From Agromyces agglutinans (lineage in GTDB: Bacteria; Actinomycetota; Actinomycetes; Actinomycetales; Microbacteriaceae), in the NCBI RefSeq assembly GCF_009647605.1, contig NZ_WJIF01000009.1, positions 272-64,271 of the forward strand: DNA of 64,000 nt, in the 5' to 3' direction. The number at the start of each line of letters is the position of its first letter. Within the stretch, counting starts at the first letter, position 1. Below are positions 1,140 through 27,017 of the stretch, one piece after another. Both the position numbers and the translations under genes were made by a program. Under the pieces are notes generated by a model. The model searched no databases. It saw only the letters and a program-made list of their open reading frames with translations, and was not told where the DNA came from.

Positions 1140-4100
1140 ATGCCTACGACGATCACCTATCCGCCCGAGCTGCCGGTCTCCGCGCAGCGCGAGGAGATCG
1201 CGCGCGCGCTGCGCGATCACCAGGTGGTCATCGTCGCGGGCGCCACGGGCTCGGGCAAGACCACGCAGCTGCCGAAGATCTGCCTCGAGCTCGGGCGCGA
1301 GTCGATCGCGCACACCCAGCCGCGCCGCATCGCCGCGCGGACGATCGCCGAGCGGGTGGCCGAGGAGCTCGGCAGCGAGGTCGGCGGGCTCGTCGGGTAC
1401 CAGGTGCGGTTCACCGACCGCGTCAGCGAGTCGACGGCGATCAAGGTGATGACCGACGGCATCCTGCTGAACGAGATCCACCGCGATCGCGACCTGCGCC
1501 GCTACGACACGATCATCATCGACGAGGCGCACGAGCGCAGCCTCAACATCGACTTCCTGCTCGGGTACCTCAAGCGCCTGCTCCCCCGTCGTCCCGATCT
1601 CAAGGTGATCGTCACGAGCGCGACCATCGATCCCGAGAGCTTCGCGCGGCACTTCGCGGATGCCTCGGGCGAGCCGGCCCCGGTGATCGAGGTGTCGGGG
1701 CGCACCTACCCGGTCGAGATCCGCTACCGACGGCTCGGCGGCCCCGCGAGTGCGGGCGCTCCTCGACCACCGGAATCCGAGGAGTCCGACGACGAGGGCG
1801 CCGCGGCCTCCGATCGCGACGTGCAGCGGGGCATCCTCGACGCGCTCGACGAACTGGAGCGCGAGTCATCCGGCGACGTGCTCGTCTTCCTCTCCGGGGA
1901 GGGTGAGATCCGCGACGCCGAGCAGGCGGTGCGGGCGCACGCGAGCCGGCGCGGCGGCGCCGGCGTCACCGAGGTGCTGCCCCTCTACGGGCGCCTCTCG
2001 TCCGCCGACCAGCATCGCGTCTTCGAGCCGTCCAAGGTGCCGGGGCTCCGACGGCGCGTGGTGCTCGCGACGAACGTCGCCGAGACGAGCCTCACGGTTC
2101 CCGGCATCCGGTACGTCATCGATGCGGGAACCGCGCGCATCAGCCGCTACTCGGCGCGCTCCAAGGTGCAGCGCCTGCCCATCGAGGCGATCTCGCAGGC
2201 GTCGGCGAACCAGCGCTCGGGGCGGTCGGGCCGAACGAGCGACGGCATCGCGATCCGGCTGTACGGCGAGGAAGACTTCGAGCGGCGGCCCGAGTTCACC
2301 GACCCCGAGATCCTGCGCACGAACCTCGCGGCCGTCATCCTGCAGATGGCCTCGCTCGGGCTCGGCGCGATCGAGGAGTTCCCGTTCCTCACACCGCCCG
2401 ACTCGCGTGGCATCCGCGACGGGCTCGACCTGCTGCGCGAACTCGGGGCGCTCGACGACGGCGGCGACGCGTCGCGCGGGCCGCGGCTGACCCGCGTCGG
2501 CCGGCAGCTCGCGCGCCTGCCGATCGAGCCGCGATTCGCGCGCATGGTGCTCGAGTCGAAGCCGCAGGGCGTCTCGCGCGAGGTGCTCGCGATCGTCGCC
2601 GGGCTCACGATCCAGGACCCGCGCGAGCGGCCGCTCGAACGCCGCGAGCAGGCCGACGCCGCGCACGCGAGGTTCGTCGATCCGACCAGCGACTTCCTCA
2701 CCCTGCTGAACCTCTGGAACCACCTCGAGGAGCAGCAGCGCGAGCTCTCGGGCAGCGCGTTCCGGCGCATGTGCAAGTCGGAGTACCTGAACTACCTGCG
2801 CGTGCGCGAGTGGCAGGACCTGTACCGCCAGCTCGTGCGGCTCGCGAAGCCGCTCGGCCTGCACGTGGCCGCGCAGGCGGGTGCGCCGAACCCCGACGGC
2901 ATCCACCGTGCGCTGCTGTCGGGCCTGCTCTCGCACATCGGGCTCCGCGACGACGCGAAGACCTCGAGCGGCCGCGGCGGCGCGGGCGGGGCGCGCGAGG
3001 CCGAGCGCAAGGGCCGGCGAGCACAGGCCGAGTTCCTCGGCGCGCGCGGCACGCGGTTCGTGGTCTTCCCGGGATCCGCCCTGGCGAAGAAGCCGCCCGC
3101 GGCGATCATGAGCGCCGAGCTCGTCGAGACCAGCCGGCTCTTCGCCCGGATGAACGCGGCCATCGATCCCGCGTGGGCCGAACCGCTCGCGGGCGCCCTC
3201 GTGCGCCGCACGTGGAGCGAACCGCGCTGGGAGCGCCGGCAGGGCTCGGCCGTCGCCGACGAGAAGGTGACGCTCTTCGGCGTGCCGATCGTGCCCAAGC
3301 GCCGTATCCAGCTCGCCCGCATCGACGCGCAGCTCGCGCGCGAGCTCTTCGTGCGCCACGCGCTGGTCGAGGAGGACTGGGACCTCAGCCGCTTCGACCA
3401 GCGCCTGTTCGCGTTCGCCCGGAGGAACCGGGAGCTGCGTCGCGAGCTCGGCGAGATCGAGGAGCGCACGCGCCGGCGCGACATCCTGGCCGGCGACGAG
3501 GCGGTGTTCGCGTTCTACGACGCCCGGGTCGCGGCCGAGGCGACCGACGTGCGCGCCTTCGAGACGTGGTGGCGCCGCGCCTTCCGCGAGTCGCCCGACC
3601 TGCTCACGATGACGACGGCCGACCTCGTCGAGGAGGAGTCGGCCGACCGCGAGGGCGGATTCCCCGACCGCTGGCGCCAGGGCGACCAGACGCTGCGCCT
3701 GGCCTACCGATTCGAACCGGGTGCCGACGACGACGGCGTGACCGTCATCGTGCCGCTCGTGCTCCTGCCGCGGCTCGACGCCGTCGGCTTCGATTGGCTC
3801 GTGCCCGGCCTGCGCGACGAGCTCATCACCGCGATGCTCCGGACGCTGCCGAAGGTGCTGCGCCGCCAGGTCGTGCCGGCGGCCGAGTGGGCCGCGAAGA
3901 TCTCGGCCGAACTGCCGCCCGGCCCCGAGTCGGGCGAGACGCGCGAACCGCTCAGCGTCGTGCTGGCGCAGGCGATCCGGCGGCTCACGTACGCGCCGGT
4001 CGACCCGTCGGACTTCGACCTCGACCGGGTGCCGCCGCACCTGCGCGTCACGTTCCGCGCGGTCGACGAGCGTGGGCGTCCCGTCGGCGACGACAAGGAC

Positions 4101-20440: not shown

Positions 20441-21385
20441 TCAGACTGTAGCGTCTGCGGCGCCGGCCCGATCCGCCGCGCCGGCAGCGCCGGAAGCACC
20501 CGCGGCGACGAACTCGGTGAGCCAGGCGCGCAGGTCCGGGCCGAGGTCGTCGCGGTCGGCGGCCAGCTGCACGACGGCCTTGATGTAGTCCAGCTTGTCG
20601 CCCGTGTCGTATCGACGGCCGCGGAACACGACCCCGTACACCCCGCCCGTGCCCTCGACGTCGCCGGCCATCTCCATCAACGCATCGGTGAGCTGGATCT
20701 CGCCGCCCTTGCCCGGAGCGGTGCGTTCGAGCACCTCGAAGACCTCGGGCTTCAGCACGTACCGGCCGATGACGGCGTAGTTCGAGGGCGCGTCCTCCTT
20801 CGCGGGCTTCTCGACCATGCCCGTGATGCGCACCACGTCGGGGTCGTCGGTCGGCTCGACCGCTGCTGCGCCGTACAGGTGGATCTGGTCGGGGTCGACC
20901 TCCAGCAGGGCCACGATCGACGCGTCCCGGCCGACCTGCTCATCGAGCATGCGGGTCAGCAGCACGTCGCGCGCGTCGATGATGTCGTCGCCGAGCAGCA
21001 CCGCGAACGGCTCGTCGCCGACGTGCATCTCGGCTCGCAGCACGGCGTGCCCGAGCCCCTTCGGTTCGCCCTGGCGCACGTAGTGCATGTCGGCGAGGTC
21101 GGTCGACTCCTGCACCTTCTGGAGCTTCGCGGTGTCGCCCTTCGCCTCGAGGGTGTACTCGAGCTCGGCCACGTGGTCGAAGTGGTTCTCCAGGGCGTTC
21201 TTGTTCCGGCCGGTGATCATCAGCACGTCGGTCAGCCCGGCGGCGACCGCCTCCTCGACCACGTACTGGATCGCGGGCTTGTCCACGACCGGCAGCATCT
21301 CTTTCGGCATGGCCTTCGTCGCGGGCAGGAAGCGGGTGCCGAGACCGGCGGCCGGGATCACGGCCTTCGTGATACGAGTCGTCAT
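20441..21385 (-). CDS. galU: UTP-glucose-1-phosphate uridylyltransferase
   Basis: GalU makes UDP-glucose from UTP and glucose-1-phosphate for cell-wall sugars and trehalose. The protein has 314 aa, typical length. The nucleotide signature PAAGLGTRFLPATKAMPKEM is at residues 10-29, followed by VDKPAIQYVVEEAV. The UDP-glucose site shows GLGHAVLRAE and EKPAKEDAPSNYAVIGRY. The ATG at 21385 begins the family's conserved N-terminus; the longer in-frame ORF reaches into the divergent gene and is not used. A TACGCT -10 box lies 6 nt upstream. Confidence 0.95.
   Translation of the reverse strand: MTTRITKAVIPAAGLGTRFLPATKAMPKEMLPVVDKPAIQYVVEEAVAAGLTDVLMITGRNKNALENHFDHVAELEYTLEAKGDTAKLQKVQESTDLADMHYVRQGEPKGLGHAVLRAEMHVGDEPFAVLLGDDIIDARDVLLTRMLDEQVGRDASIVALLEVDPDQIHLYGAAAVEPTDDPDVVRITGMVEKPAKEDAPSNYAVIGRYVLKPEVFEVLERTAPGKGGEIQLTDALMEMAGDVEGTGGVYGVVFRGRRYDTGDKLDYIKAVVQLAADRDDLGPDLRAWLTEFVAAGASGAAGAADRAGAADATV
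20445..20450 (-). promoter_or_regulatory. -10 box TACAGT, leaderless, for rimJ
   Basis: TACAGT lies inside the last codons of galU and 6 nt before the rimJ ATG. Confidence 0.5.
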
Positions 21386-21391
21386 CGCTTC

Positions 21392-21397
21392 AGCGTA
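21392..21397 (-). promoter_or_regulatory. -10 box TACGCT, leaderless, for galU
   Basis: TACGCT lies exactly 6 nt before the galU ATG. The divergent fthC promoter is about 55 bp away, so the two genes share a short control region. Confidence 0.55.
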
Positions 21398-21448
21398 CCG
21401 GCCACCCCTGCACGCAGCGTCGTCGGCGGCTCCCACCACCTCGGGTCC

Positions 21449-21454: not shown

Positions 21455-21461
21455 GTGTGGC

Positions 21462-22040
21462 ATGCCCGACGATCCGGCCGTGGTCAAGCGCATCCTCCGC
21501 GCCGAACTCCGCGAGCGCCGACGCAACATGCCGGCCCACGAACGCGAGCTCGCGACCGAGGGGTTCACCGCCCGCCTCCAGGAGTTGGTCGGCTCGACCG
21601 ACGCGCGTTCGCTCTCGTGCTACCTCTCGATGCCGTCCGAGCCCGACACGCGCCCGTTCGTGAACTGGGCCGAGGCGCGGGGCATCCGCGTGCTGTTCCC
21701 GGTCACGCGAGATGACGGGCTGCTCGACTGGACCGTCGGCGAAGCGCAGACCGAGCGGCTCGGCCCCACCGGGGTGCCCGAGGCCGAGGGCGACCTGCTC
21801 GGGCCGATGGCCATCAACGACGTCGACCTGATCATCGTGCCCGCCGCCGCGGTCGACGCGACCGGCATGCGCCTCGGCTGGGGTCGGGGCTATTTCGACA
21901 AGACCCTCGGTTCGATGGGAAAATGTCCCCCGGTGTACGCCGTGGTCTTCGACGGCGAGTTCGTCGAGTCCGTGCCCCGCGAGGTGCACGACCAGCCCGT
22001 GAACGGCGTCGTCACCCCCACGCGCATCGTCGCGTTCTGA
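21462..22040 (+). CDS. 5-formyltetrahydrofolate cyclo-ligase
   Basis: Converts 5-formyl-THF to 5,10-methenyl-THF with ATP (MTHFS). 192 aa, normal length. N-terminal KRILRAELRERRRNMP carries basic residues used in ATP binding. The C-terminal signature is LGWGRGYFDKTLG around residue 135, with DLIIVPAAAVD before it. It sits divergently from galU and upstream of fmdB, a conserved actinobacterial order. The start at 21462 fits the leaderless promoter. Confidence 0.93.
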   Translation: MPDDPAVVKRILRAELRERRRNMPAHERELATEGFTARLQELVGSTDARSLSCYLSMPSEPDTRPFVNWAEARGIRVLFPVTRDDGLLDWTVGEAQTERLGPTGVPEAEGDLLGPMAINDVDLIIVPAAAVDATGMRLGWGRGYFDKTLGSMGKCPPVYAVVFDGEFVESVPREVHDQPVNGVVTPTRIVAF

Positions 22041-22083: not shown

Positions 22084-22461
22084 ATGCCCACCTACTCCTA
22101 CCGCTGCACCGAGTGCGGCAACGCCTTCGACATCCAGCAGGCCTTCACCGACGATTCGCTCACGACCTGCCCTGCGTGCGGCGGCCGGTTGCGCAAGCTC
22201 TTCAACACGATCGGCGTCACCTTCAACGGCTCCGGCTTCTACCGCACCGACTCGCGCAGCGGGTCGGGCGGCGGTTCGTCCGAGGGCCCGAGCGGGGGGT
22301 CCTCCAAGAGCTCGGATGCCTCGGGCGGCGGCTCCTCGTCGGGTTCGGGTTCGTCGGGCTCCGGATCGTCGGGTTCGGGTTCGTCGGGCTCCGGTTCGTC
22401 CACGTCCGGTACCTCGTCGTCCGGTTCGAGCTCGTCCGGGTCCTCGGCTAGCGTGGCCTAG
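22084..22461 (+). CDS. FmdB-family zinc ribbon protein with Gly/Ser tail
   Basis: Small zinc-ribbon regulator-like protein of the FmdB family, 125 aa. The ribbon spans residues 1-45 with the four cysteines in CTECGNAF and CPACGGRL. The rest, about residues 55-120, is a Gly/Ser repeat, encoded partly by a perfect 30-bp tandem duplication (22341-22370 and 22371-22400). FmdB proteins are thought to be regulators but the role is unproven. It is 43 nt after the cyclo-ligase gene and 38 nt before mscL, so the three probably form an operon. Confidence 0.85.
   Translation: MPTYSYRCTECGNAFDIQQAFTDDSLTTCPACGGRLRKLFNTIGVTFNGSGFYRTDSRSGSGGGSSEGPSGGSSKSSDASGGGSSSGSGSSGSGSSGSGSSGSGSSTSGTSSSGSSSSGSSASVA
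22341..22400 (+). repeat. Two perfect 30-bp tandem units in the fmdB tail
   Basis: Units 22341-22370 and 22371-22400 are identical and encode alternating Gly and Ser. Being a multiple of three, copy-number change would keep the frame. Confidence 0.85.
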
Positions 22462-22499: not shown

Positions 22500-22988
22500 A
22501 TGCTCAAGGGTTTCAAGGAATTCATCCTTCGCGGGAACGTGATCGAACTCGCGGTCGCGGTCGTGATCGGCGCGGCGTTCACCGCGGTCGTCAACTCGGT
22601 CGTGACGAACCTGATCAACCCGCTGATCGGTGCCATCTTCCGGGCAGACAGCCTCGACACGGCGCTCGTCGTGACGATCCCGTCGCTCGACGGCGAGGGC
22701 GCGCAGATCAAGTTCGGCGCCGTGCTGGGCGCGCTCCTGACCTTCGCGATCGTGGCCGCGGTCGTCTACTTCGTCTTCGTGCTGCCGATGAACACGCTCA
22801 AGGAGCGGGCAGAGGCCAAGCGCAAGGCGGGCCGGCCCGACCCCGACGAGCCGGAGAGCGAGCTCACCCTGCTCGCCGAGATCCGCGACCTGCTCGCCGC
22901 GCGTCCGCAGCGGTCGTCGCAGCCGTCCGAGCCGACGCCTCCGACGGGCGACGCGCCGACGTCCGGCTCGGGCCGCCACGCCGGGTAG
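22500..22988 (+). CDS. mscL: Large-conductance mechanosensitive channel MscL
   Basis: Pentameric channel that opens on membrane tension in hypo-osmotic shock. 162 aa. The N-terminal helix has MLKGFKEFILRGNVIELAVA, followed by TM1 (VVIGAAFTAVVNSVV) with the DLIxP-like turn as NPLIGAIF. TM2 is about residues 80-100. The cytoplasmic tail is longer than in E. coli and rich in Pro, Ser and Thr. ATG start behind GGGAGGG. Confidence 0.95.
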   Translation: MLKGFKEFILRGNVIELAVAVVIGAAFTAVVNSVVTNLINPLIGAIFRADSLDTALVVTIPSLDGEGAQIKFGAVLGALLTFAIVAAVVYFVFVLPMNTLKERAEAKRKAGRPDPDEPESELTLLAEIRDLLAARPQRSSQPSEPTPPTGDAPTSGSGRHAG

Positions 22989-23028: not shown

Positions 23029-23253
23029 CTACCAGTGCGGCGGCCGCTCGCGCGTGATGCGCTCGTCGTCGTGGCCGCCACGGCCGCGACCGCGCGACTC
23101 GGCGTCGTCCTCGCCCGGCACCGCCGGCTCGGGCGACGGGTCGCTGCCCGGAGCCGGCGTGAGCTTCGCACGACGCGCTCGGCCGGCCGCCCGCTCGACG
23201 CGCTGGCGCGGGGCGGGCTCGCCCGACGGGGCATCCGAACGGTCGCCGGTCAT
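23029..23253 (-). CDS. Small charged protein coupled to the SF1 helicase
   Basis: A 74-aa, low-complexity, Pro/Arg/Glu-rich protein with no clear fold until the C-terminus, which reads HDDERITRERPPHW. I have seen an ending of the type DERLxxDRPPHW in other actinobacterial small proteins but cannot name the family. Its ATG overlaps the helicase stop in an ATGA arrangement, so translation is coupled. The position suggests a partner of the helicase. Function unknown. Confidence 0.6.
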   Translation of the reverse strand: MTGDRSDAPSGEPAPRQRVERAAGRARRAKLTPAPGSDPSPEPAVPGEDDAESRGRGRGGHDDERITRERPPHW

Positions 23254-26200
23254 GAGGCGGCGCGCGCGGCCGGCTCCTCCTCGGGCTTGCCGAGGAGGCT
23301 GGCGACGCGGTTCGCGACCGCGTCGGGGTTGCCGAACAGTTCGAAGCTGTGCACGCGCAGGTAGTGCCAGCCGAGCCGGCGCAGCACGTCGGGGCGAAGG
23401 CGCAGCGACTCGCGCAGGCTCTGTCCGGCGAGGGCGGCATCCGTCTCGACGACGACGGCCTTGCCCGCGTGCGCCGCGGCGAGCGCGAGGCTGCCGCGGT
23501 AGTCGAGCTTCACGCGGACGCCGCGGCGCTCGAGCCGCGCGGCGAGATCGACGAGCATGGCGTCGGGCGCGGTGCCGGCGGCGTCGCGCGCCTGGCGCTC
23601 CTCCGTCTGGCTCAGCACCTGCGCGAGCGCGAGCACGCCGTGCGACTGGCGCTCCTCGTCGATGTGGTCGGGCCGGAAGGCCGAGATGACGTCCATCGAA
23701 CGCCGCGCCCGGGTCATGCCGACCGCGAGCAGGCGGTCGCCGCCGGGTTCGCCGAGCGCACCGAAGTTCGACAGCAGCCGGCCGTGCGGCGTGCGCCCGT
23801 AGCCGACCGAGAACACGACGCGGTCGCGGCTCTGCGCCACCGCCTGCTCGAGGGTGAGCACCGTGAACGGCTCCGCGCGATCCTTCAGCAGGAACTCCGA
23901 CAGGTCGCGCCGCTTCGCGAACGCCGCCAGCACGGCCTGGTGCACGCGCGCGGCGTGCCGCGGGCTCGCCGTGATGACCATGAGCGACTCGCGCGGGCGC
24001 TTCACGGCGTGCTCCATGACGAGTTCGACGACCTTGCCGACCTCCTGGTCGAGGCTCTCGACCGTACCCGTCAGCGGGTCGGGCAGGCCGTTGCCGTCGA
24101 CGTAGTGCAGGCGGAGGCTGCCGTGGCCGAGGAAGCTTCCGGCCCACGGGTGCGACTGGATGCGCCCGCCGTAGAAGCGGCGGTTGACGAGCTCGGCGAG
24201 GTCCTCGCCGCCCGCCCGGTAGCTGCGGGTCAGCGTCATGGTCGGCAGCAGCTCGCCGAGGCGGGCGAGGGCCGAATCGGCGTGCAGCGCGTCGACGCCG
24301 AGCTCGGTGCCGGCGCCGCCGGCCACGCGATCGCGGTCGTCGATGCCGGTCTCGAAGAGCGTGGGGGTCTGGGTGACCGGGTCGCCGAAGGCGACGACCT
24401 GCTTCGCGCGCCGGATGGCGCCGAGGTTCTCGGCGATGGTGGTCGCGCCGGCGTCGACGAGCACCACCGCGTCGAAGGCGATGCGGTCGGAGATGCGCTC
24501 GACCTCGTACGGCGACGCGAGCCAGACCGGCGCGAGCGCGCGCAGCAGGGTGGGCGCGGCCTCGTGCAGTTCGGCCGGGCGCACCCGGTCGGAGCGGAGC
24601 ATCCGCTTGAGTCGCTCCGCCTCGTCGGGGTGGTCGACGAGCGCGACGTTCCAGTTCTCGGCGAGGCGCCAGGCGGCGAGCGGCCCGCTCGCCGAGGCGT
24701 GCGCCTCGTCGACCAGGCGGAAGTCGGCCTCGAGGCGATCGAGCACCTGCGTGTTCGCGCCGAGCAGCGCCTTGTCGCTCGCGAGCACGCCCTCGAGCAT
24801 GGACTGCCACCAGGCGAGCTCGAGCTCGTCGGCGACCTGGTGCTCGAGCACATGCCGTTCCGACAGGTCGCGCAGGAGCGGGTCGAGGCCGAGGTCGCGC
24901 AGCCGAGCGAGCAGCGCCGTGCGTTCCTGGAGGTGCGCGAGCACGTCGGAGTCGGCGGCGAGGCCCGCGAGCAGGCTCGTGAGCTCGCGGATCGGGCGCG
25001 CCGCGAGCTGGCGCGGCGTTCCGGCGAGCCCGAGCGGGCGGTCGAGCGACGCGAGGTCGCTGGCGACGGTCTGGAACGCGACCCGGACATCGTCGATGCC
25101 GACGGGAACGCCCGGGGTCGCTCCCGCCTCGGAGTAACGCTGCCAGAGCGTGCGCTGCTGCTGGATGCCACGGAGCGCCGCATTCAGGTCGGTCACGTGC
25201 ACGCCCGGGCGCACGAACTCGAGCGCGTGCCGCCGCAGTCGTCGGCGGTTCGCCCCCGACATCCCCGGCGAATCGCGGCGCGAGCCGGTCGCGGCGATGA
25301 GTTCGCCGAGCGGCCGGTCGAACACCGACGGGCGGAACCGGTCGAGCGTGTCGCGCACGTCGAGCAGCAGTCGCAGGAAGACGCCGAGCTCGGCGACCGA
25401 CTCGAACTGGCGAAGCCGCGTCTGCGCGATGAGGGCGCGGCCTCGTTCGAGCAGTCGCGGCACCTCGGTGCGGTGCAGTCGCTTCGCGAGCGCGTGCGCG
25501 GCCTCGGACTCGGCGGCCGTCTCGAACGCGGCGCCGTACCAGGGCGAGTCGCCCGGGCCGTACTTGAACTCGCCGAGCGCTGCGGCGCGCACCAGGTCGC
25601 GTGCCACCTCGGGGCGCTTCCCGGCGATGCGCACGAGGCAGTCGTGGTCGAGGCGGGCGGTCGTGTGGGGGGCCGGCTGCACCAGGGCGAGTCGCGAGAG
25701 CTCGACGAGGGCGTCGAGCACGGATGCCCCGAGCGCGGGGTCGCGCCGGGTCAGCGACGAGCGGTAGTCGAGCAGCACCTTGCGCAGCCGAACGAGCGCG
25801 TCGTCGACGTCGGCGACCCGCGGCCGCTCGGCCTTCTCATTGCGCGAGATGGACTGGATCAGCTCGCGTCGCAGGCCGTTCGTCGTGACCGCCGCGCCCG
25901 CGAGACCGACCTGGCCGAGCCGGTGCGCGATGCCGTCGAGGCTCGCCCGGCGCGCGCCGACGACGAGCACGCGCTGGTTCTTGGCGACGAGCGCGCCGAC
26001 CGCGTTCACGATCGTCTGGGTGCCGCCGGTGCCGGGCAGCGTCTTCACGACGAGGGATGCCCCGGCCTCGATCTCGGCGACGACCTGTTCCTGTTCGGGG
26101 TCGGCGTCGAGCAGCAGGCGGTCGCCCTGGGGCGGGCGCTGATCCTGCGGCACGATCGTCGCGGGCTCGCCACGCGCCGCCGCGAGCGCGGCCCGCGCCG

Positions 26201-27017
26201 ACGGGTTGCCGGCGATCGCGTCGATGACCGGGTGCTCGAGGTCGGCGGCGTCGGCGGCCATCGCCGGGCCGACCTCGGCGAAGCTCGACACGACGAGCCT
26301 CGGCGCCACGCGGAACCACGGGAGGTGCGAGGTGAGCCCACGGAGCCGGTCGATCACCGGTTGCGGCTTGAAGACACCGTTCGAGATCGCGAGCGCGACG
26401 AACGCGTCGGCGTCGAGCGTGATCTGGAACTGCGCACGCAACTCGCGGGCGAGCGCCGGGTTGAGGAAGGGCTGGCCCTTGAGCTTCAGCTCGAAATCCC
26501 GCCCGTAGCGGCGGATGGCGAGCGGCCGCAGCAGCACCGGGGCCAGGAATTCCTCGCCGTCGTTGCGCCAGTTCGCCAGGCCGATCGCGAGATGCACCGA
26601 CTCGATGCCGCGGACCGAGCGCAGCTCGATACCCTTCTGCGTGATCTCCGCGGCGGCGACCTTCGCGTTGCGCAGCGCCAGCTCGTCGCGGATGAGGCTC
26701 GACAGCAGCGTCGACTTCCCGGTGATGAACTGCGGCAGCCCGCCCGGATGCGTCGTCGACAGCTCGATGCGCGTGCGCGGCGTGTCGACGAACCGCACGA
26801 GCGGCGAGCGGCCGCCGACCGCGGCCAGCTCCGCGAGCCAGCGGGAACGGGCGGGATCGGCGACGTTCCCGGCGACCAGCGTCGGGTCGCCGACGCTGAT
26901 GCCGTCTGGGCTGGTGTGATGCTGGCTCATGGCTTCCGGGGTGAGATCGTCGGCGGCGGCATCCGACTCGGGAGGAAGCGTTTCCTCCTCGTCAGGGTTC
27001 CGATCGAGCCGCGGCAC
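23250..27017 (-). CDS. SF1 helicase-like protein with C-terminal MTES_1575-type REase-like domain
   Basis: A 1255-aa superfamily 1 helicase-like protein. The Walker A region at residues 326-335 reads TLPGTGGTQT: the Lys of GxGK is Gly (codon 26022-26024). Motif II reads VVLVDAGATT, lacking the DE pair of DEAS. Other motifs are intact: AFGDPVTQTP (III), LTRSYRAGGEDLAELV (IV), VFSVGYGRTPHGRLL (V) and AVGMTRARRSMDV (VI). The last 100 residues (VKLDYRG, VVVETDAAL, then RLGWHYLRVHSFELFG) match the nuclease-like domain named after Microbacterium testaceum MTES_1575. GTG at 27017 is chosen because TATCCT lies 6 nt upstream; ATG 26930 is the alternative. Confidence 0.8.
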   Translation of the reverse strand: MPRLDRNPDEEETLPPESDAAADDLTPEAMSQHHTSPDGISVGDPTLVAGNVADPARSRWLAELAAVGGRSPLVRFVDTPRTRIELSTTHPGGLPQFITGKSTLLSSLIRDELALRNAKVAAAEITQKGIELRSVRGIESVHLAIGLANWRNDGEEFLAPVLLRPLAIRRYGRDFELKLKGQPFLNPALARELRAQFQITLDADAFVALAISNGVFKPQPVIDRLRGLTSHLPWFRVAPRLVVSSFAEVGPAMAADAADLEHPVIDAIAGNPSARAALAAARGEPATIVPQDQRPPQGDRLLLDADPEQEQVVAEIEAGASLVVKTLPGTGGTQTIVNAVGALVAKNQRVLVVGARRASLDGIAHRLGQVGLAGAAVTTNGLRRELIQSISRNEKAERPRVADVDDALVRLRKVLLDYRSSLTRRDPALGASVLDALVELSRLALVQPAPHTTARLDHDCLVRIAGKRPEVARDLVRAAALGEFKYGPGDSPWYGAAFETAAESEAAHALAKRLHRTEVPRLLERGRALIAQTRLRQFESVAELGVFLRLLLDVRDTLDRFRPSVFDRPLGELIAATGSRRDSPGMSGANRRRLRRHALEFVRPGVHVTDLNAALRGIQQQRTLWQRYSEAGATPGVPVGIDDVRVAFQTVASDLASLDRPLGLAGTPRQLAARPIRELTSLLAGLAADSDVLAHLQERTALLARLRDLGLDPLLRDLSERHVLEHQVADELELAWWQSMLEGVLASDKALLGANTQVLDRLEADFRLVDEAHASASGPLAAWRLAENWNVALVDHPDEAERLKRMLRSDRVRPAELHEAAPTLLRALAPVWLASPYEVERISDRIAFDAVVLVDAGATTIAENLGAIRRAKQVVAFGDPVTQTPTLFETGIDDRDRVAGGAGTELGVDALHADSALARLGELLPTMTLTRSYRAGGEDLAELVNRRFYGGRIQSHPWAGSFLGHGSLRLHYVDGNGLPDPLTGTVESLDQEVGKVVELVMEHAVKRPRESLMVITASPRHAARVHQAVLAAFAKRRDLSEFLLKDRAEPFTVLTLEQAVAQSRDRVVFSVGYGRTPHGRLLSNFGALGEPGGDRLLAVGMTRARRSMDVISAFRPDHIDEERQSHGVLALAQVLSQTEERQARDAAGTAPDAMLVDLAARLERRGVRVKLDYRGSLALAAAHAGKAVVVETDAALAGQSLRESLRLRPDVLRRLGWHYLRVHSFELFGNPDAVANRVASLLGKPEEEPAARAAS

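Follow-up and report, generated by a model that had tools for sequence, protein, structure and literature searches.

A near-universal gene of the Microbacteriaceae encodes a probable pseudo-helicase with altered ATPase and nuclease centres

Why would a bacterial lineage keep a large helicase gene after the residues that power a helicase have been replaced? The question is raised by a 1255-codon frame in a 64,000-nucleotide stretch of Agromyces agglutinans DNA (the window), which is part of contig 26 (NZ_WJIF01000009.1) of a 3.9-Mb genome (G000). The frame lies on the minus strand (23250..27017), runs from a GTG at 27017 to 23253 with its stop codon at 23250-23252, and encodes a protein with a superfamily 1 (SF1) helicase core and a C-terminal nuclease-like domain; sequence conservation is strong only from about residue 60 onward, and the GTG start is putative. 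The initial annotation, made from the sequence alone, proposed either a selected pseudo-ATPase or a scaffold for the nuclease-like domain, coupled to a small protein encoded by the next gene. The data presented give an even chance to one answer, that a UPF1/Dna2-type SF1B pseudo-helicase with a fused nuclease domain, related to anti-phage proteins, became a non-hydrolysing core scaffold or sensor that binds nucleic acid.

The replaced residues are a property of the family. A scan of named genomes returned 91 relatives, of which the best 80 were kept and resolved into 78 distinct loci, giving 79 aligned rows with the window; most are titled Microbacteriaceae or its genera, five (L036, L043, L049, L056 and L078) carry broader or odd titles, one of them Acidobacteria, and contig ends truncate L051 and L077. 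The nearest named relatives are Agromyces species, with the best segment 76-83% identical. The Walker A motif of the window protein reads PGTGGTQT (residues 328-335, 26013..26036, minus strand), and Gly332, encoded by GGC at 26022-26024, stands at the Lys position, as had been annotated; throughout the alignment this position is Gly (68 rows) or Ala (11 rows) and Lys occurs in 0/79. A second set of 40 loci, overlapping the first in some species and containing the gene of the window, has the Lys-less GGTQT P-loop in 40/40. Close orthologues with normal motifs were looked for and none was found, and a Lys-less P-loop in all 79 rows and all 40 loci rules out a private mutation or a sequencing error. 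The proposal of a selected pseudo-ATPase is supported.

Motif II was described as VDAGAT without the Glu, and this sequence is present at 24441-24458, within LVDAGAT (residues 853-859, 24441..24461, minus strand), but the loss goes deeper than described. A gap-free alignment of FDEASQ, the motif of intact relatives, with LVDAGA places Val854 at the Walker B Asp and Asp855 at the catalytic Glu; position 854 is Val in 72 rows, Leu in 5 and Met in 1, and position 855 is Asp in 78, each with one gap. The description of motifs III to VI as intact holds for the Arg of motif IV (78/79 rows, one gap) and the Arg of motif VI (77/79, with one Ser and one gap), but not for motifs III and V, which are degenerate. 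The motif III region contains GDPVTQ (residues 876-885, 24363..24392, minus strand; GDxxQL in intact relatives), and its Gln position is Thr in 72 rows, Ile in 6 and a gap in 1, whereas 12/13 ATPase-intact short relatives keep the Gln; motif V reads AVAQSRDR in the window protein as against VQGDERD in intact relatives. An alternative P-loop, ITGKST (residues 98-103), was considered and rejected: the predicted structure has no strand-loop-helix there, and residue 101, which is Lys in 65/79 family rows, is mostly Arg in a wider alignment. Searching the same genome for a second intact copy gave no MTES_1575 match above the Pfam cut-off and two weak ones elsewhere; one 1367-amino-acid frame elsewhere has AAA_11 matches above the cut-off.

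The altered gene is retained almost without exception. It is matched at E<=0.001 by 297/299 Microbacteriaceae genomes, by 267/268 of those of high quality and in 85/85 genera, the two genomes lacking a match (G094 and G184) being 82% and 94% complete. Retention extends to 32/33 family genomes listed at <=1.5 Mb (sizes are rounded and some genomes incomplete) and down to a genome of about 0.9 Mb (G015). Across the order, 243/248 genomes match some member, short and long members counted together. All 24 order genomes selected to represent families f2-f20 match, with one short copy each among the matches listed, some of these copies being split over contigs or cut in drafts; three of these genomes (G303, G311 and G316) carry an extra relative of about 2,000 amino acids. 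In the class 54/197 genomes match and in the phylum 17/149, counts that include weak and long relatives and come from scans in which few candidates were scored per genome.

Furthermore, the gene evolves under constraint. The ratio of non-synonymous to synonymous substitution rates (dN/dS) was 0.20-0.36 in 13 pairwise comparisons chosen among the 78 loci, as computed by the Nei and Gojobori method (NG86), which is rough for GC-rich genes; together with the 297/299 retention this rules out a pseudogene. Of six regions compared, residues 300-400, which hold the dead P-loop, showed the lowest dN in 11/13 comparisons, L012 and L022 being the exceptions. When 1236 windows of 20 residues were ranked by entropy in the 79-row alignment, the P-loop window fell at the 1.7 percentile, followed by motif IV (4.2), motif VI (9.5), motif V (13.4) and motif III (28.3), and the nuclease window 1184-1203 and its neighbour 1200-1219 parted widely, the latter lying at 5.2. 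The dead P-loop is therefore guarded in the Microbacteriaceae.

The history of the losses was traced in a tree that a quick search without bootstrap gave for 91 of the 93 rows in the alignment, the motif columns having been removed; L210 and L227, cut by contig ends, were omitted, and f13 and f17, represented by fragments, are absent. The Walker A Lys is missing from 66/91 rows, and 58 of these group in a single clade that spans 16 GTDB families (Shimodaira-Hasegawa-like approximate likelihood ratio test, 99) and whose sister, made up of f5 and f18, contains 8 Lys-bearing and 2 Lys-less rows. Parsimony needs four changes for the Lys, two for the Walker B Glu and nine for the nuclease Asp. A single origin of all Lys-less rows was rejected by the approximately unbiased (AU) test (p-AU 0.0098, LG+G4, 31 of the 91 rows) and was no longer rejected once L152 and L153 were removed (p 0.227). 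These sequence comparisons support at least two losses of the Lys, as against the four of parsimony. Within the 58-row clade the P-loop has drifted by family, to GQTQT, GATQL, GVDVPAT and GSSSIET, so that ATP handling is not the shared job of the clade. Some short relatives outside it, the f38 members among L174-L191 and L179 (f25), carry Arg in place of the Walker A Lys (GRTQT or GRSQT) and EDAGR or MDAHQ at motif II, and possibly lost ATPase activity independently.

The tree is complemented by a conserved chromosomal address. Downstream of the helicase gene lie three convergent plus-strand genes: mscL (22500..22988; PF01741, 1.2e-36), a zinc ribbon gene (22084..22461; PF09723 Zn_ribbon_8, 5.4e-16) and a 5-formyltetrahydrofolate cyclo-ligase gene (21456..22040, start approximate; PF01812, 2.8e-34). 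A minus-strand nucleotidyl transferase gene follows (20441..21436, start approximate; PF00483, 8.1e-30), presumably galU-like, and then, by Pfam, a gene for a GCN5-related N-acetyltransferase (GNAT). The zinc ribbon protein, which we take to be of the FmdB type, has a long Ser/Gly-rich tail and resembles the mycobacterial chaperone Rv0991c. Counting loci with at least 3 kb of downstream sequence as keeping the address when at least one neighbour stood in the expected orientation, it was found in 65/67 Microbacteriaceae loci (of 78, L002-L079; 11 with shorter sequence uncounted) and in 33/39 other loci of the order (of 52, L120-L171; 13 with shorter sequence uncounted). No expected neighbour was seen at L039 and L067 in the family or at L137, L142, L143, L154, L155 and L170 in the order. 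All seven ATPase-intact order members examined (7/7) share the mscL side, which was seen at 0/13 long Hhe/ProA-like loci, where only 0.4-2.9 kb downstream could be examined. The upstream side is not conserved, since by a rough method the most widespread gene clusters occur in only 9/46 and 7/46 loci. Tree and synteny together suggest that the gene was inherited vertically, with a single loss early in the history of the main clade, and the evolutionary history of the pseudo-helicase is on the whole well supported.

Whether the gene forms a unit with its small neighbour has a divided answer. A 74-amino-acid protein ending in PPHW is indeed encoded at 23029..23253 on the minus strand, overlapping the helicase gene by ATGA as annotated. 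No Pfam or NCBIfam model matched it when four members were searched. A frame ending in PPHW follows the helicase in 88/106 evaluable distinct Microbacteriaceae loci and in 38/75 others from the order, class and phylum, one of the 38 (L146) being only a 13-amino-acid frame. It starts between -60 and +30 of the helicase stop in 72/88 and 29/38 of these, and the two genes share exactly 4 bases in 34 and 14 of them; starts were set at the earliest possible codon, a choice that biases towards overlap, and only the exact string PPHW was counted, variants being scored as missing. The proposed pair of large helicase and small partner is thus recurrent, but the small protein shows no exclusive tie to the helicase: a profile built from 19 PPHW proteins matches 122/197 class genomes once each at E<=0.01, and by hand comparison of the lists 41 of these match the helicase query and 81 do not. 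Among 20 fetched regions around such hits (L256-L275), 14 contain mscL (9) and/or the zinc ribbon gene and 6 neither, and L275 also holds a short helicase. The PPHW gene probably stood next to mscL first, and the helicase gene joined it later. Class-wide, the C-terminus resembles GWG[ED]...DDERLLxERPPH[WH], and Microbacteriaceae members lack the GWGE part. In Pseudomonas aeruginosa, a core DUF4011 gene adjacent to a conserved small hypothetical gene flanks a defence hotspot, according to PMC10250203, and this arrangement is a possible parallel to the pair in the window.

The C-terminal domain fares less well as a reason for the gene to exist. An MTES_1575/Vsr-type nuclease-like domain (residues 1158-1240, 23298..23546, minus strand) is present as annotated, although it stays below the Pfam cut-off (PF18741, 7.3e-6; 26.4 bits for the protein and 30.7 in the genome scan, against a gathering score of 38.2 bits) and lacks the first catalytic Asp. 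That position is Gly in 32 rows, Ala in 30, Pro in 7, Ser in 6, Thr in 1, Lys in 1 and a gap in 2, so that Asp occurs in 0/77 family rows reaching it, as against 13/13 intact short relatives. Because this Asp is lost throughout the family, the suggestion that the protein exists as a scaffold for its nuclease-like domain is unsupported. Acidic residues stand at position 1191, with Glu in 73 rows and Asp in 4, and at position 1193, an Asp in 77/79 rows with the other two cut short. In seven f6 rows (L120, L122, L125, L128, L129, L130 and L166) the ATPase Lys is gone and the nuclease Asp is present in 6/7 and the Glu in 5/7; judged by these residues, the f6 members of the order are possible ATP-independent nucleases. 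The gene is not MTES_1575 itself, which PMC3710099 describes as a protein of more than 2,100 residues that carries both HEPN and transglutaminase domains.

An AlphaFold2 (AF2) model of residues 56-1255, built from a 43-row alignment, reached a predicted local distance difference test score (pLDDT) of 87.4 and a predicted template modelling score (pTM) of 0.75. It has a predicted UPF1-like tandem RecA fold, with IGHMBP2 as the best solved neighbour (Z 19.4, root-mean-square deviation 4.2 over 499 residues), followed by UPF1 (Z 18.4), Dna2 (Z 18.2), Sen1 and SETX; by sequence, no match to a solved structure was found at E<=1. The first RecA domain carries an all-helical insert of 406 residues (385-790, 24648..25865, minus strand; pLDDT 86.4) that had no Foldseek match in the PDB at E<=0.001 and a best VIA Z of 6.3, within noise, and the lack of a solved relative does not show a new fold. 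Near the N-terminus, residues 119-191 (26445..26663, minus strand) resemble DUF4011 (PF13195, 6.5e-4), at 20.2 bits short of the gathering score of 22.2 bits, which the relatives L120 (23.5 bits) and L150 (29.0 bits) pass.

How, then, might such a protein have arisen, and what could it do? Its ancestor would have joined an SF1B helicase of the UPF1/Dna2 type to an MTES_1575/Vsr-type nuclease domain and been kin to the anti-phage proteins Hhe and ProA and to the candidate PDC-S37. The ATPase residues may have been lost in the ancestor of most of the order, when the gene lay beside mscL and the gene for the PPHW protein; transmission would afterwards have been mainly vertical, as a core gene, and in the Microbacteriaceae the nuclease centre probably decayed as well. 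The present role, without NTP (nucleoside triphosphate) hydrolysis or cleavage, would most likely be that of a large RecC-like scaffold or sensor for nucleic acid. Nucleic-acid binding, the scaffold role and any partner, the PPHW protein included, are putative. The fuller version, in which an anti-phage-type helicase-nuclease was domesticated once into a RecC-like dead core factor that has a housekeeping nucleic-acid role and works with the PPHW protein, is tentative and has less than an even chance. Several observations weigh against the scaffold or sensor. At least four family genomes (G063, G194, G153 and G179) have one stop inside the match, and the motif II window, at the 45.7 percentile of entropy, is not unusually conserved, while the nuclease window 1184-1203, at the 83.0 percentile, is poorly so; the guarding seen at the P-loop therefore does not extend to motif II or to part of the nuclease domain. 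The exact PPHW string is absent after the helicase in 18/106 and 37/75 evaluable loci, no co-varying partner emerged among the upstream genes of 46 loci by rough clustering, and 338/72,556 plasmid records match, mostly partially, from outside the order and as weaker matches to the superfamily.

In the Microbacteriaceae the main rival is a nucleotide switch, in which the altered P-loop would bind NTP or some other nucleotide but not hydrolyse it, the binding setting the conformation; the strict conservation of the P-loop, where the Lys has given way to Gly or Ala only, and of the motif IV and VI arginines speaks for it. We nevertheless think it unlikely, because replacement of the Walker B Asp by Val, Leu or Met in 78/79 rows makes Mg binding doubtful and because sister families of the Lys-less clade have erased the P-loop altogether (GVDVPAT, GSSSIET), so that a switch is not the common function of the clade. 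The same conserved P-loop backbone and arginines could be taken as signs of an ATPase working through non-canonical residues, a reading given very little credence here with the Lys, the Walker B Asp, the catalytic Glu, the motif III Gln and the QG of motif V all changed. Retention in phage defence, the protein sensing phage nucleic acid without ATP and perhaps with the PPHW protein, draws on its closest described relatives, which belong to anti-phage or candidate anti-phage families, but the shared address and near-universal presence differ from the scattered distribution that defence genes usually show. The close form is also rare on mobile elements: among 72,556 plasmid records a single one, a 415-kb replicon from Actinomyces oris, reaches 80% coverage of the protein, at 31% identity, and one phage record of 50,697 matches at all (coverage 41%). 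With both enzymatic sites altered too, this explanation is quite unlikely. Only a slight chance is left for an ATP-independent nuclease that still cuts with its C-terminal domain, the helicase part serving as a scaffold: the acidic residues at 1191 and 1193 and the nuclease Asp of Lys-less f6 would fit it, whereas the family lacks the first catalytic Asp, and the poor conservation of window 1184-1203 and the sub-threshold domain score also tell against it. Finally, the loss of both enzymatic centres and the internal stops might suggest a decaying remnant without function; this is disfavoured and credited with next to nothing, since the gene is found in nearly every genome, small ones too, dN/dS is low and the dead P-loop is highly conserved, and neither relaxed dN/dS near 1 nor frequent loss was seen.

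To our knowledge, it is unusual for a dead helicase to be a core gene. The near-universal retention of this one suggests a function, perhaps a housekeeping one, that has gone unrecognised, and to call it a 'DNA helicase' or a 'defence protein' would probably be misleading. The relatives form a natural series, from intact proteins through ATPase-dead ones that keep the nuclease Asp (f6) to those with both sites altered, in which the change from a defence-type enzyme to a non-enzymatic core protein could be studied, and intact relatives survive at the shared address in two families of the order. No literature treating the gene was found by title or abstract start, mainly among open-licence papers; PMC8467076, as far as its available part goes, is unrelated to it.

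Among known systems, the gene belongs by sequence to the wider Hhe/ProA/PDC-S37 superfamily, without reaching the cut-offs of its named members. The window protein scores 301.1 bits (1.5e-89) with ProA (NF058533; curated cut-off 1500 bits), 149.1 bits with Hhe (NF042953; curated cut-off 2000 bits), which a separate search matched at 1.1e-37, and 319 bits (1.8e-95) with the PADLOC profile PDC-S37, which has no stated cut-off; intact short relatives reach higher scores, L150 for example 820 bits with PDC-S37, 801 with ProA and 554 with Hhe, and also stay below the ProA and Hhe cut-offs. Beyond these strong sub-cut-off matches, the order of parts is alike (DUF4011-like N-terminus, SF1 core, MTES_1575-type domain), but the profiles span 1550-1911 positions as against 1255 amino acids, and the window family lacks the ATPase and nuclease residues and occupies a core locus. 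Closer still are the short intact relatives, of similar length class both in f5 and f18 (e.g. L135 and L150), where the chromosomal neighbourhood is shared, and outside the order (L192-L195, L234); they differ in keeping the Walker A Lys, the Walker B Glu and the nuclease Asp in 13/13. The UPF1, IGHMBP2, Dna2 and Sen1/Senataxin SF1B helicases resemble the protein in predicted fold (Z 17-19), whereas their identity to it is about 13-18% and the window protein has degenerate versions of motifs I, II, III and V. The nearest functional analogy may be RecC of Escherichia coli RecBCD, in which helicase and nuclease folds have lost catalysis and serve as a DNA-handling scaffold, although RecC belongs to another SF1 branch and has known partner enzymes, where none was found for the pseudo-helicase.

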